DNA of 61,662 bases from a virus. The first letter of the stretch is position 1. Every line of letters begins with the position of its first letter. The translations under genes were made by a program, and so were the position numbers. The stretch covers positions 1 through 61,662 of the IMG/VR virus record IMGVR_UViG_3300042343_000382. The stretch is one strand, 5' to 3'. The notes under the pieces were generated by a model, which saw nothing but the letters and a program-made list of their open reading frames with translations, was not told where the DNA came from and made no database searches. This document shows positions 3,961-32,523 of the stretch, in pieces.

Positions 3961-6396
3961 TTATCTCGGCTCAAACTCAGCGAATGAAAAATCATCAAGC
4001 GAATCCTCGTTTGATTCGAAGTCAACAGGAGGCAAGTTATTCTTACGCTGCTCAATTAATTTAGATTGAGTTGTTGCCTGCTTCAATATTCTATTGTCCT
4101 TAGCCTTCTCCTTCATCTCGTCCTTCATAGTTATAGCCTGAGCCTCAACACCCCTAAGCTGCATATTCATCTGGAACTCAACATTCATCAACTCAACCTT
4201 TAACTGAGCCTCTGACTTCATCTTTTCTATCTCGTATCCAATCTCTGCCTGCTTGATCATCATCTTAGACTGAGTCTCTGCCTGAATTTGTTGCATAGCG
4301 TTCTGAGCAGCCATCTGCTGAGACTGAGCATTAATCTGAGCTTGCATCTGTTGAGCTTGCATAGCGTTCTGCTGATCCTGCTCCTGCTTCTTACGTCTCT
4401 TAAGTTTAAGCAACTGATTAGCAAGCTTAATGTTATTTATCTCTCTAATATCTATAGCGTCCTCAAGTGTAATCGCATCTCTTGAAAGTGCAACCTGAAT
4501 GTTCTGCTCTAGCTTAGTCTTCTCCTCCTCGTCTGGAGACATCTCTATAAATATACCGAAGTCGTATATGTATATCTCCTTAATCTCTTCAAGAAGGCTT
4601 ACATTGTACTTACCGATCTGCATAGCAAATGTCTCTGCAAAGTCAGAGTACTCTAGTATATCAGCAACCCTATAAGATATAGCCTCAGCTAATCCCTTAG
4701 TTATGCTTAGACTTCCGTCTAGTATGTGTCTTGTGGCTGTGTTTGAGTTTGCCGCTGCAAGCTTCTGTAGACCAACTAAAGAGTTAGGATCTGGCATACT
4801 ACCATCCCTAGCCTCGTTCAATCCTGTCACATCTCTAATCATACTTAGGTAGTGGTTATAACTTCCAATTAACGAAGCTATCTTACCCTGACCGCTGTTA
4901 GAGTTAAGCTCCTGGATAGGAACCCTTGCGTTATTAAACTCACCATCCTGAGTGTAGCTTCTACCGATAACACTACCAGTCTGGAAGTATAATCTAAGCG
5001 CGTCCTCTGGATTGTATGCTGCCCCGTTACCCAAGTCAACCTCGTTAAGTCCATCGGCATCGATGAACACACCGTCAGGTACAACCCTAGAAATAACCTG
5101 CTGTAGCTTTAAGTGAGTAACCTGAATCAAGTCAGCAAATGGTATCATACGTCTAACCAAAGACTCTATGTTACCCTTATACATTCTTGGAGCCACTGCT
5201 ATATAGTTTGGAAGCGCGTGCTGAGATGATGACTTAGGTCTAACCATATTCTTGGAAAGCTCCCACTTCAACATAATGTTAGTACCCATCACCATAATAC
5301 CATCGTACCACACGTCGATAGTCTTCTCTACCTTCTCGAACTTACCGTCCTCCATCATCTCGTTAGGAGGATTAAACGTATCATCCTTCTGAATCATTCT
5401 AACACCGCCTGTGTCTAGTACCTTTTTCTTATAGACAAACTTCTTTGTTGTCTTGTAATTAACATAAAGAAGCGTGGCAGAGTCTCTACTAAACAAGCTG
5501 TTCTGATAGAACTGTGCGTTGTTGTAGTAGTTGTACCAAGACTGGCTGTACTTTGAAATCTCTTCAAGCTGCTCGTTTGTAAGTGTAGGATCTATCTTAA
5601 GTAGTTCAGTAATAGCTACAGTCTTAATCTCTCCCCAGTAGAAGCAATCTCTAAAGTGCGGATCCTCTGTGTAGCTGTGAACGATATTGGCAGGATCTAC
5701 GTAGTCAATCTGAACGCCACTTCCTGGTAGGAACTGGTGCTTAACTAATCCCTTACCAAGTACGGCTAGGTCGTAGTCAACTCTGCTCCTTATGTCTGAG
5801 TACTTGTTGTCCTCTAGTATTGTGTTAATTGCAGTCTCCTCAGCGATTTCTATTGCTGGCTTGTAGTTGATCTGCATAAATAAATTAAGCTCCTCTGAAT
5901 CCTGAGGCAGCTGATCGGCATTTGTATCAAACGCATCAACCCCGAAACTATCCTTTATCTGATTCAGAATATCCTTAGACACCATATCGGTCTCTATCAT
6001 ATCCTGATACTTGCTACGTCTCTCGGCAGATACTGCATCCTGAGCGTAAGCCTTAACTCTAAAAAGTCTGTCAGACATACCGTTAACAACGATATCGACA
6101 AACTTTGGTATAATTGGAATCGGTGTCCAATCTAAATTTAAATGAGAAAGGTCACCATCTACTGATAACTCGTTCTTATATTTAGCAACTGATTGTTCTC
6201 CCCTTGCGTATAACCGAAGACGATGAAACTCACCCCACTGATTATAGAATTTACAAGTTCCACTATCTCGTCTGAACCACTCATATTGCACAGACTGGCA
6301 AATCTGAAGACCGTATTCGTATGTTGCTTTTTCTTTATCAGAAGCAAATTGACTTGGGAAACCTGCAGGATTAATGTTAATGGTTACATCCTTCAT
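3961..6396 (-). CDS. Portal protein
   Basis: This 811-residue protein directly follows the large terminase gene (stop and start adjacent). It resembles crAss-like portals: an N-terminal YEYGLQICQSVQYEWFRRDS region, a conserved core (WTPIPIIPKFVDIVVNGMSD) and a long helical C-terminus. Residues about 680-740 are Gln/Met-rich and probably coiled coil. The portal would form the dodecameric DNA gate at the capsid vertex and dock the terminase. Its length is in the range for crAss-like phages. Identification rests on family resemblance plus gene order. Confidence 0.85.
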   Translation of the reverse strand: MKDVTININPAGFPSQFASDKEKATYEYGLQICQSVQYEWFRRDSGTCKFYNQWGEFHRLRLYARGEQSVAKYKNELSVDGDLSHLNLDWTPIPIIPKFVDIVVNGMSDRLFRVKAYAQDAVSAERRSKYQDMIETDMVSKDILNQIKDSFGVDAFDTNADQLPQDSEELNLFMQINYKPAIEIAEETAINTILEDNKYSDIRSRVDYDLAVLGKGLVKHQFLPGSGVQIDYVDPANIVHSYTEDPHFRDCFYWGEIKTVAITELLKIDPTLTNEQLEEISKYSQSWYNYYNNAQFYQNSLFSRDSATLLYVNYKTTKKFVYKKKVLDTGGVRMIQKDDTFNPPNEMMEDGKFEKVEKTIDVWYDGIMVMGTNIMLKWELSKNMVRPKSSSQHALPNYIAVAPRMYKGNIESLVRRMIPFADLIQVTHLKLQQVISRVVPDGVFIDADGLNEVDLGNGAAYNPEDALRLYFQTGSVIGRSYTQDGEFNNARVPIQELNSNSGQGKIASLIGSYNHYLSMIRDVTGLNEARDGSMPDPNSLVGLQKLAAANSNTATRHILDGSLSITKGLAEAISYRVADILEYSDFAETFAMQIGKYNVSLLEEIKEIYIYDFGIFIEMSPDEEEKTKLEQNIQVALSRDAITLEDAIDIREINNIKLANQLLKLKRRKKQEQDQQNAMQAQQMQAQINAQSQQMAAQNAMQQIQAETQSKMMIKQAEIGYEIEKMKSEAQLKVELMNVEFQMNMQLRGVEAQAITMKDEMKEKAKDNRILKQATTQSKLIEQRKNNLPPVDFESNEDSLDDFSFAEFEPR

Positions 6397-21406: not shown

Positions 21407-22990
21407 TTACGCTCGTGTTAAGGTTATAATCGCGTTGGTGCTTAGTATCGTGGTGGCTACACTGACCGCGTTCTTCAGCGCGTTCTTCGTCACCTTCAGC
21501 GGATCTATTATCCCCATCCCGAACATATCACCGTAGCACTCATTCTTCACGTCGTAACCGTGCCCATGATCGTTCACGCTCGACATCACCTCGTAGCCGT
21601 CCTTACCCGCGTTGTCCATTATCTGCAGCAGCGGTGACTGTATCGCCCAGCCAACGATCTGCATCGCGGTGTACTGGTCGTGGCTTATGTGCTCCATATT
21701 TTCATCCGCGTACTCAATAATATCAGACGCTATATTAAACAGCGCCACACCACCACCTGGTAGTATGCCCTCCTCTAGTGCCGACCTTACAGCACAGACA
21801 GCGTCATCAACCCTGTCGTACCTCTCCTTCTGCTCCACGTCCGAGCCACCTCCAACGTATATAACTCCAACACCACCTGTAAGTGACGCTATACGCTCCT
21901 TTAGGGCGTCCCTCTCGTTCTTCCTCGTTGAGTTGTTGTGCTGTATCCATAATTGTTCTACACGCTCTCTAATCGCCTCATTTGAGGTCTCGCTTCGAAC
22001 TAAGACTGTGCTGTCCCTTCCGACGATCACCCTGTCTGCCTTCCCGAGGTGGTCTATTGTGATTAGACTCAGGTCATCACCAGTCTGCTCGCTGAAGTAC
22101 TTAGCACCAACCGCAAGCGCGATGTCCTGCATCAGCTCCTGCTGCTTGTAGCCAAACTGTGGCGGCTGAATGTTACAGAACTTCAGGTTGTTATGAGCCA
22201 CGTTTGCAGCCAGCGTGTTGATCACGTTGCCAGTACACGGTCCAATTATCAATAGCTTCTTCTGCCCGTTTATGATCGGCTTCAGCACGTTCTCTATAGA
22301 CAGTATGTTACTTATCTCCTGGTCGGTCACCATAATGTACACGTCCTCCATTATGCACTCCTCCTTCTTCATGTCATTCACGAACAGCCTGCTCGTGTAA
22401 CCACGTCCTATCTTTATACCATTAGTCACCTCGCTGTAGGTCTTATCCGTCTGCGAGTTCTCCACTGTAACGATGCCCTCCTTACCGACCTTGTTGTACG
22501 CGTCAGCGATAATAGCACCCAGCTCCCTGTCGTTATTAGCAGATATAGAGGCTACGTCCTTGAGCGTCTTACCACTCACCTTCTTGCTCATCTTCTCCAG
22601 GCTCTTTACAACACCATCGACAACAGTGTTCACGTTACGAAGCACCTCCGTCGGGTTGTTCCTCTCCGTGATGAACTCGTTGCCCCTTGTGACCATAGCC
22701 TCAGTCAGCACAATCGCTGTGGTTGTACCGTCACCTGCGCTGGTTGCAGTCCTGTCGGCCGCCTCCTTCATCATACGCACCGCAAGGTTCTCAACTGGAT
22801 CCTTTAGGTTTATAGATTTAGCAACCGTGACACCGTCCTTTGTAATAGTTATACCGTTAGTGTGGTTCTGTGATTCAATTAGCACCGTCTTACCTCTCGG
22901 TCCTAACGTGCTCTTTACCGCCTTGCTGATCGTGGTTATACCATTTACCAGCTTGTCTCTTCCTTCCTTGTCAAATACTAAGTCGTTCAT
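21407..22990 (-). CDS. groEL: Chaperonin GroEL
   Basis: 527 residues, close to the full bacterial length. Key elements are present: the nucleotide-binding LGPRGKTVLI (about 29-38) and GDGTTTAIVL (about 85-94), GGGVALF near 405, and the catalytic Asp region VDDAVCAVRSALEEG near 390. The apical domain with GRGYTSRLFVND near 195 is complete. The C-terminal Gly-Gly-Met tail is absent (ends STNAIITLTRA). The gene is relatively GC-rich compared with its surroundings. It probably folds capsid or tail proteins with the phage GroES. Confidence 0.95.
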   Translation of the reverse strand: MNDLVFDKEGRDKLVNGITTISKAVKSTLGPRGKTVLIESQNHTNGITITKDGVTVAKSINLKDPVENLAVRMMKEAADRTATSAGDGTTTAIVLTEAMVTRGNEFITERNNPTEVLRNVNTVVDGVVKSLEKMSKKVSGKTLKDVASISANNDRELGAIIADAYNKVGKEGIVTVENSQTDKTYSEVTNGIKIGRGYTSRLFVNDMKKEECIMEDVYIMVTDQEISNILSIENVLKPIINGQKKLLIIGPCTGNVINTLAANVAHNNLKFCNIQPPQFGYKQQELMQDIALAVGAKYFSEQTGDDLSLITIDHLGKADRVIVGRDSTVLVRSETSNEAIRERVEQLWIQHNNSTRKNERDALKERIASLTGGVGVIYVGGGSDVEQKERYDRVDDAVCAVRSALEEGILPGGGVALFNIASDIIEYADENMEHISHDQYTAMQIVGWAIQSPLLQIMDNAGKDGYEVMSSVNDHGHGYDVKNECYGDMFGMGIIDPLKVTKNALKNAVSVATTILSTNAIITLTRA

Positions 22991-31201: not shown

Positions 31202-31461
31202 GTTCTGAGCAGATAGTTAAGGAGTTGGTTGATAAGTTTAACGAGACCTCTGCAAATAATAAGAAATTTTATTTTACATTTGTGCAGAAGGAGGAGTATA
31301 TGAACATAGAGTTCGGCATCTCTGAGGAGAACTGCTTCGTATTCAAGGAGTACATAAAGAAGAACGCGGACGCAGACGCACTTAGGGAGAAGTTATTCAC
31401 GAGGTTTATAAACGACGTGTTTACTAGGATGTTTGATCTGATAAAGAGGAATAAATTTTAA
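31198..31461 (+). CDS. Small protein after the exonuclease, unknown function
   Basis: 87 residues, rich in Phe, Lys and Glu, probably helical. It overlaps the exonuclease gene by 4 nt and ends 7 nt before the first tRNA-like gene. Confidence 0.5.
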   Translation: MSSEQIVKELVDKFNETSANNKKFYFTFVQKEEYMNIEFGISEENCFVFKEYIKKNADADALREKLFTRFINDVFTRMFDLIKRNKF

Positions 31462-31468
31462 AATAAAA

Positions 31469-31567
31469 GTGTAGTGTGGCGGAATGGTAAACGCTAAGCG
31501 TAGTAAGGTAAGCTGACAGACGACGTAAAACAACTTGCCGTGCAGGTTCGAATCCTGCCACTACACC
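31469..31567 (+). tRNA. tRNA-like gene 1 with abnormal anticodon region
   Basis: A 7-8-bp acceptor stem (GTGTAGTG / CACTACAC), a Leu-like D arm (TGGCGGAATGGTAAACGC) and a perfect T arm (GCAGG-TTCGAAT-CCTGC) are present. The 47 nt between D and T arms contain no 5-bp/7-nt anticodon arm; the one strong stem is GGTAAG/CTTGCC with a 21-nt loop. I cannot assign an anticodon. It may be a degenerate or specialised tRNA. There is no encoded CCA beyond CC-A after the stem. Confidence 0.5.
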
Positions 31568-31642
31568 AAAAAAATCGTCTTGGTAAAACAAGTTAAGTGA
31601 TGCACGTAAGTCATAGCAGGTTAAGCGATATCCTGCAAATTG

Positions 31643-32002
31643 GGGGGTGACTGGTTTTGACAGGTTACCAATAATTAATACAATCAGCCAGAGAGACAAC
31701 TGTAAACTAAGGTGAATTTTTTAAATGGCAATACAAACACTCGTGTAGTATCTCTAGGAGACAACGCACAAATTGAAGCTAACATGAACAAAGTATTCTC
31801 TTTATTGAGAGAAGAAGTTGGTGTAGCAGCCTAAACATTCAAAGGATTTCTCTGTTAGATTAAACAGAGTGGTGGTTTCGCTGACTTAATTGTCGGCCCT
31901 AGAGTGCGCCTGTAGACTCTTTAAATAAGTATAGGGACAAAAGCTGTATAAATTGTATTAATGAACGTAGTTTGGACGTGGGTTCGACTCCCACCACCTC
32001 CA
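31643..32002 (+). ncRNA. ssrA: tmRNA (ribosome rescue RNA)
   Basis: The 5' end GGGGGTGACTGGTTTTGACA and the 3' end with T arm GTGGG-TTCGACT-CCCAC and CACCTCC are classic tmRNA halves that pair over 7 bp. The central reading frame runs to TAA at 31832-31834 and ends EEVGVAA, a typical degradation-tag tail. If the resume codon is GGA at 31757, the tag has 25 residues beginning GDNAQIEA; a start at 31751 is also possible. The tag frame contains a TTCTCT/AGAGAA hairpin. CCA is not encoded. No smpB was found, so host SmpB would be used. Confidence 0.93.
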
Positions 32003-32127
32003 CTAATGCAGTTCAATTCTGCTCGGTTACTGAGAATTGGTATCTAAATGAGGCTCGAAACCTCCTCGTATGTCGAGATTAGTAGCGCTAGGTGGCGTCA
32101 GTATGACAGCTTGGAAAGACAAGCAAA

Positions 32128-32234
32128 AGTCAAGTGGTGTAAGTGGGAATGAATACCACCTAGGGATAACATAGTGACTGAGATAGCATCTCTTAATTTG
32201 TCACTGGATGAAGGTTCGAATCCTTTCTTGACTA
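32128..32234 (+). tRNA. tRNA-like gene 2 with abnormal anticodon region
   Basis: It has a perfect acceptor stem (AGTCAAG / CTTGACT) followed by A, and a T arm (GAAGG-TTCGAAT-CCTTT). A D-like hairpin (GTGGTG / TACCAC) follows the acceptor. The central stem is AGTGAC/GTCACT with a 21-nt loop that itself contains GAGAT-AGC-ATCTC. At 107 nt it is too long for a normal tRNA, and no standard anticodon loop can be drawn. The 32005-32127 spacer holds two orphan T-arm-like hairpins. Confidence 0.5.
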
Positions 32235-32259
32235 CTATTAATATTTAAATTTAATTACA

Positions 32260-32523
32260 ATGGAAAAAATTTTTGCAGATGGTTTCGTATTCAAGAGAAA
32301 CGAAAAGGCACCAGACTTCGTGGTGGGAAACATCAGTGTTAAGGTTGAGGAGGCTGTAGCCTTCTTGAAGCAACACACTAAGAACGGATGGGTTAACCTA
32401 CAGGTTAAGAACTCTCAAGGTGGTAAGTACTACATCGAGTTGGACACGTTCGAGCCTAAGGCACAACAGCAGGCTCCTGCTCAACAGCCAGAGCCAGTGA
32501 ATGATGGTACGCTACCATTCTAA
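32260..32523 (+). CDS. Single-stranded DNA-binding protein candidate
   Basis: 87 residues: a small beta-rich domain (FVVGNISVKVEEAVAFLKQH then GKYYIELDTFEP) followed by a Gln/Pro linker. The end NDGTLPF is like the C-terminal tip that SSB proteins use to bind partners. It lies among replication and recombination genes and has its own terminator. The family was not recognised directly; the call rests on build and tail. Confidence 0.6.
   Translation: MEKIFADGFVFKRNEKAPDFVVGNISVKVEEAVAFLKQHTKNGWVNLQVKNSQGGKYYIELDTFEPKAQQQAPAQQPEPVNDGTLPF

Follow-up and report, generated by a model that had tools for sequence, protein, structure and literature searches.

Virus-borne ssrA genes have been reported before, from the mycobacteriophage Bxz1 group, Bacillus phage G and phages of Pelagibacter and OM43 (PMC4131195, PMC9004378), and one survey found a tmRNA in 402 of 18,146 phage genomes (PMC9004378). 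The published ideas on their role are upkeep of the hijacked translation machinery or tagging of host proteins for degradation (PMC9004378). According to a 2025 database paper, which contains little on phages, tags of 10 aa are the most frequent (PMC11915505). A tmRNA is also annotated in the phage Calle, whose tag is not discussed in the part of the text found. Phage tmRNAs as such are therefore already known. We found in the open-licence literature no description of a viral tmRNA lineage with long, motif-bearing tags, although the database (PMC11915505) may include some of the sequences, and judging from this absence a virus-only lineage of this kind appears to be undescribed.

Here we analysed a viral record of 61,662 nt (61.7 kb; IMGVR_UViG_3300042343_000382), referred to as the window. 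In the large terminase it shares 72% identity with the 60.9-kb podovirus MW202828 and 47% with Flavobacterium elemo phages, and on the basis of this likeness a flavobacterium is the most likely host. ARAGORN called a complete one-piece tmRNA at 31643-32003 on the plus strand, its sole tRNA or tmRNA call within the whole window, and a covariance search, which a first-pass annotation of this DNA had proposed, matched positions 31643-32005 to the full RF00023 model of Rfam with 97.7 bits (E 6e-37; cut-off 47). Pairing of the ends as a tRNA-like domain, likewise part of that annotation, was confirmed: the acceptor stem strand GGGGGTG (31643-31649) pairs with CACCTCC (31995-32001) and includes G3-U70, the alanine identity pair, which is present in 83 of 83 relatives having an intact acceptor stem, and the T-arm GTGGG-TTCGACT-CCCAC (31978-31994) is intact. 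Compensatory changes affect three stem pairs of the T-arm in a comparison of 10 relatives, and other pairs of the tRNA-like domain also vary in a compensatory way within the lineage. CCA is not encoded at the 3’ end, where the gene reads on ACTA. A permuted two-piece tmRNA was rejected as an alternative, since the RF04321 scores of 34.5 and 26.5 bits fell below the cut-off of 47 and the gene is collinear.

The pseudoknot-1 (PK1) region, AGAGAGACAACTGTAAACTAAGGTGAA (31690-31716), is conserved and constitutes the signature of the viral lineage. A hairpin with covarying pairs, CTCTGTT/AACAGAG (31850-31869), lies 3’ of the stop codon. The distance from the stop codon to the gene end has a median of 163 nt in the phage lineage versus about 270 nt in hosts. 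This shorter 3’ half suggests that one or more of the four pseudoknots typical of tmRNA are probably reduced.

Flavobacterial host tmRNAs carry TTTTAAAC followed by the resume codon GGC, about 95 nt from the 5’-end, and encode the tag GENNYALAA; the phage tmRNA reads TTTTTTAAAT-GGC at 31727, 85 nt from its 5’-end. Alignment to host ssrA, another comparison proposed at first pass, placed the host GGC at 31727 and upheld a long tag. In a tblastn search with the 35-residue tag, residues 1-35 were aligned at 74% identity in 29 Flavobacterium psychrophilum phage genomes. U85 and A86 set the tag frame in E. coli (PMC2481249). The equivalent bases of the phage gene, U(-5) and A(-4) at 31722-31723, are strongly conserved, with A at -4 in 89/89 and U at -5 in 88/89 distinct relatives among the matches listed. 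From the host alignment, the tblastn result and the conservation of these two bases we read the tag as GNTNTRVVSLGDNAQIEANMNKVFSLLREEVGVAA (35 aa), encoded on the plus strand from GGC to TAA (31727-31834).

ARAGORN started the tag at GAC 31760 (24 aa), in the same frame as GGC 31727, and the first-pass annotation had started it at GGA 31757, giving about 25 codons. A resume codon at 31757/31760 is less likely, as members of the lineage without the inserted hairpin have none there, 7 of 30 relatives have lost U(-5) at that site whereas all 30 keep it at 31727, and the host resume codon aligns instead to 31727. It is a possible option under which frame and core would be identical. Thus the tag is unusually long as first described, its start being shifted to the homologous position, and all evidence puts the resume codon far upstream of the stop codon, contrary to the placement close to the stop that was named at first pass as a ground for refutation. 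The C-terminal part REEVGVAA (31808-31831), already read as EEVGVAA at first pass, has the degron-like -AA end found in 83/89 distinct tags among the matches listed; its last residues, GVAA, qualify by sequence as a putative hydrophobic C-terminal proteolysis signal.

A DNA pattern of the PK1 region, for which only exact matches were counted, identified at least 119 viral contigs and gave zero exact matches in the genomes of 84,980 prokaryote species. From the listed matches a set of 89 distinct genes was drawn. Among these, tags have 24 to 49 residues with a mode of 35. The initial statement that the tag is far longer than bacterial ones is therefore valid against the 9-aa tags of hosts, but its length is normal for the viral lineage. 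All but one of the 89 genes (88/89, among the matches listed) encode the motif Q[IV]xANMxxVx[SN][LI][LI] or a close variant, with the invariant Q three residues before ANM, V five residues after it in 87/88 and an end pair that is nearly always [LI][LI]. In the phage under study this core comprises tag residues 15-27, QIEANMNKVFSLL (31769-31807). The sole exception among the 89 is a 49-residue tag without ANM (L236), of which a truncated copy exists (L305). The core is located 2-14 residues from the tag start and 8-24 residues from the tag end.

A second scan with a tag pattern ignoring PK1, run to completion, yielded 56 matches. Of these, 28 loci were new; each reads as a tag of this type, and most have a recognisable PK1, whose stem varies compensatorily among them (CAG/CTG, CTG/CAG, AAG/CTT). 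An occurrence of the core elsewhere in phage genomes was rejected, since every match to it in the DNA examined was a tmRNA. The expanded tag had been proposed to be phage-specific, and this was borne out by the comparison: the motif recurs in well over 100 other viral tmRNAs and was absent from the bacterial genomes searched. A tree recovered the lineage as monophyletic with support of 100/99, to which we give little weight because the sequences were selected by PK1 and the grouping is partly built in.

Named members of the lineage are phi14:2 (Crassvirales), Calle_1 (Pervagoviridae) and FpV4 (Fipvunavirus), in addition to the elemo-like podovirus described here. The closest relatives of its tmRNA among the matches listed are 82-89% identical over the aligned parts and are located on other, mostly larger contigs. 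Several of these contigs encode distant homologues of phi14:2 proteins; the only phi14:2 homologue of the window in the same test is a 527-aa protein, its GroEL. Related tmRNAs on contigs with differing proteins would fit an exchange of the tmRNA between unrelated phages. The window encodes both GroES (PF00166; 21148-21405) and GroEL (phrog_5725; 21407-22990) on the minus strand, and phi14:2, with the same tmRNA type, likewise has an annotated GroEL. In the phi14:2 record (KC821624) a deposited hypothetical CDS at 4000-4101 covers the 5’ part of the tmRNA, and the tmRNA locus of FpV4 (KT876724, about 81938-82301) carries no annotation. One 105-kb phage contig (3300025853_000041) harbours two tmRNAs of the lineage with different tags (L574, L601).

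To function, a tmRNA of this kind would draw on partner proteins. Exactly one tmRNA was detected in 94 of 100 Flavobacteriaceae genomes at a stringent cut-off, and the sampled flavobacterial tags nearly all have 9 residues, mostly GENNYALAA. SmpB is encoded in 31/31 Flavobacteriaceae genomes; in the phage record a search for SmpB found none, in agreement with the first-pass annotation. ClpX was present in 20/21 and Lon in 21/21 Flavobacteriaceae genomes. SspB was detected in 0/31, in a search that was positive in the E. coli and Caulobacter controls.

We favour, with moderate confidence, the interpretation that the gene is a working, host-protein-dependent tmRNA of a flavobacterial phage whose tag combines a helical docking module with a ClpX-type degron. 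Host alanyl-tRNA synthetase would charge the phage tmRNA via G3-U70 and host SmpB would bring it into stalled ribosomes. Translation would then resume at GGC 31727, and the chain would gain alanine plus the 35-residue tag before its release at TAA 31832. The tag itself would have three parts: a leader doubling as an RNA hairpin, the helical module formed by the core, and the C-terminal -VAA as ClpX-type degron. We infer expression, tagging and degradation, and for the helix a role in docking a protease or adaptor. Proteins stalled during infection, whether on host mRNA that has been degraded or on phage mRNA that has been cut, would be cleared by a route chosen by the phage, besides the recycling of ribosomes. 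That the core lies at variable distances from the two tag ends suits a docking module that may be tethered to a degron.

Alternatively, the helical module could be an effector, with tagged fragments blocking or redirecting a host factor such as a protease, RNA polymerase or a defence protein, or with the tag shielding fragments from the host ssrA route. Conservation of the core far beyond the needs of a C-terminal ClpX signal, in hosts without an SspB adaptor to bind it, would be in line with such a function. However, retention of the -AA terminus in 83/89 distinct tags among the matches listed argues that the tagged product is destined for degradation. Moreover, a strict DNA pattern of the motif, which overlooks Ser TCA codons, gave 0 matches in 199 Flavobacteriaceae genomes, so that the core was rejected as a copy of a host protein and there is no obvious mimicry. 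We consider an effector function unlikely. A shared neighbour gene as the adaptor was rejected as well, since at most 28 of about 120 loci, which are partial, had any one protein family in common.

The tag frame is both open and under protein-level constraint. For the core, the tag frame gave a pN/pS of 0.39 and the two alternative frames gave 0.91 and 1.44. No distinct relative has a stop codon inside the tag frame, whereas stop codons interrupt both alternative frames of each tag; the invariant core residues Q, A and N are written with varying synonymous codons. AlphaFold predicted a helix over residues 10-34 of the tag, with a pLDDT of about 86 in the core, a prediction that carries little weight for a peptide modelled in isolation. 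Codons 1-11 of the 35-residue type showed a pN/pS of 0.98, that is no protein constraint.

An RNA hairpin of 10 pairs with the loop TAG, which the first-pass annotation had overlooked, occupies codons 6-15 of the tag frame (31743-31769). It is paired in 140/140 cells across 14 distinct sequences. In its two variable pairs both sides change each time (UA to GC; CG to UA and GC), and each double change also alters amino acids. None of 500 shuffles reached its covariation score or its paired fraction; measures counting pairs or types were reached by shuffles (74/500 and 66/500). This implies that selection on part of the extension acts on the RNA and not on the protein. The hairpin TTCTCT/AGAGAA that had been noted at first pass is real as well (31796-31813); restricted to a subset of the lineage, it is kept without change in 14 of the 26 distinct tags of 35 codons, and relatives show a compensatory change at one pair.

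These hairpins raise the question of whether RNA evolution produced the long tag as a side effect, by stretching the frame over structured RNA, so that nothing but the frame and the final residues would matter. The perfectly paired, covarying hairpin in codons 6-14, the lack of protein constraint on codons 1-11 and the overlap of the second hairpin with the core in a subset of members would all be expected. Nevertheless, members that have neither hairpin still carry the core motif, e.g. GKQIDANMAKVRSLITSEEVLMAA (L247), and its codons vary synonymously, and we regard this explanation as quite improbable.

It is also conceivable that the phage tmRNA merely supplements the host tmRNA in ribosome recycling, the identity of the tag being irrelevant. 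Consistent with this, tag function is dispensable in E. coli for the propagation of a tmRNA-dependent phage (PMC2481249). Rescue alone, however, leaves unexplained why unrelated phages have the same invariant motif inside the tag, which makes it a very unlikely account; the conserved motif rather favours retagging, in which proteins would receive a phage-specific peptide. A core that stays the same from one phage family to the next and is missing from the searched host genomes makes the degradation-tagging idea directly testable. Furthermore, the phage tag may yield a new degron for Bacteroidota, or point to a new protease adaptor in this group, in which SspB was not found.

The tmRNA is part of an RNA cassette (31469-32235) that is flanked by a gene with its end at 31461 and another that starts at 32260. 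Upstream of the tmRNA lies a tRNA-like gene with a good acceptor stem and T-arm but without a recognisable anticodon arm (31470-31566, plus strand; Rfam tRNA 39.4 bits, ARAGORN negative). Downstream follows, according to sequence and fold, a second tRNA-like element with the acceptor stem AGTCAAG/CTTGACT and a T-arm (32128-32234, plus strand), which has no normal D or anticodon arm, received no ARAGORN call and has a tRNA homologue at 5060-5157 of the related contig L126. At the cassette site L126 carries two tRNA-like genes (4811-4934, 5060-5158), likewise with good acceptor stems and T-arms, and no tmRNA. Two further relatives (L127, L129) have no RNA cassette there, their coding flanks almost abutting as clean empty sites, and MW202828 has just a short gap at the matching position. 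Absence of the whole cassette from the closest phage relatives implies that the tmRNA gene is dispensable. Positions 31977-32127 of the window, i.e. the tmRNA 3’ end and about 120 nt downstream, share 80% identity with the 3’ end of the phi19:3 tRNA-Cys and the sequence that follows it (L004, 3001-3152), which suggests that recombination at the T-arm may have linked the two. That the gene is a passenger, a functionless remnant of an attachment site or tRNA cassette, is extremely improbable despite its presence or absence among close relatives and the roughly 80% identity of its downstream flank to the region 3’ of the phi19:3 tRNA-Cys, as it is complete, its lineage is under purifying selection, the exact PK1 pattern revealed no host counterpart of the type, and no integrase was seen among the window ORFs searched.

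Among viral tmRNAs, those of the Bxz1 group, phage G and the Pelagibacter/OM43 phages represent other lineages, and many of the marine ones are two-piece. Some other viral contigs encode tags of 10-11 aa, e.g. ANTSAYALAA. Long tags unrelated to the one described here and with a core of their own, [FI]EDA[ML][SA]FV, occur at six loci (L469, L495, L501, L502, L511 and L533; e.g. ANVELSTWTFEDAMSFVSVDYAVAA), and six other viral tmRNAs (L476, L483, L489, L491, L497 and L506), of which at least three lie on contigs of about 270 kb, have the common tag GNTNFWSLVNESVNAPVTEELLAA. A tblastn search with two other long tags and a Bxz1 tag returned no match in the phage collection, and we claim no resemblance to the Bxz1 tag. 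More tentatively than for the mechanism proposed above, we suggest that the QxxANMxxVxxLL helix may be a virus-specific targeting module bound by a host or phage factor, that many unrelated Bacteroidota phages may attach it to each stalled protein and so have taken over the trans-translation tag as well as ribosome rescue, and that lineages of the TFEDAMSFVS and FWSLVNESVN types may have done likewise independently.

Tags directed to other proteolytic routes are known from bacteria. The Lon-directed ssrA tag of Mesoplasma florum (PMC8138137) is a precedent, unrelated in sequence to the phage tag; unlike in that case, the flavobacterial hosts have both ClpX and Lon. The E. coli ssrA tag with SspB (PMC8138137) resembles the phage tag in being bipartite, with an adaptor-binding part and a C-terminal ClpX part, but the phage module is longer and predicted to be helical, and its probable hosts belong to a family in which SspB was detected in 0/31 genomes. 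The tmRNAs of phi14:2, Calle_1/phi38:1 and FpV4 and its kin belong to one lineage with that of the window and share one motif, although they come from other phage families and their tags, of 38, 30 and 35 aa, diverge outside the core. With Flavobacteriaceae ssrA (RF00023) the phage gene has in common the tRNA-like domain, G3-U70, GGN after U(A)A, the -AA tag end and the lack of an encoded CCA. In contrast to the host gene, it has a 3’ half about 100 nt shorter, a different, fixed PK1 sequence and a tag of 35 instead of 9 aa.
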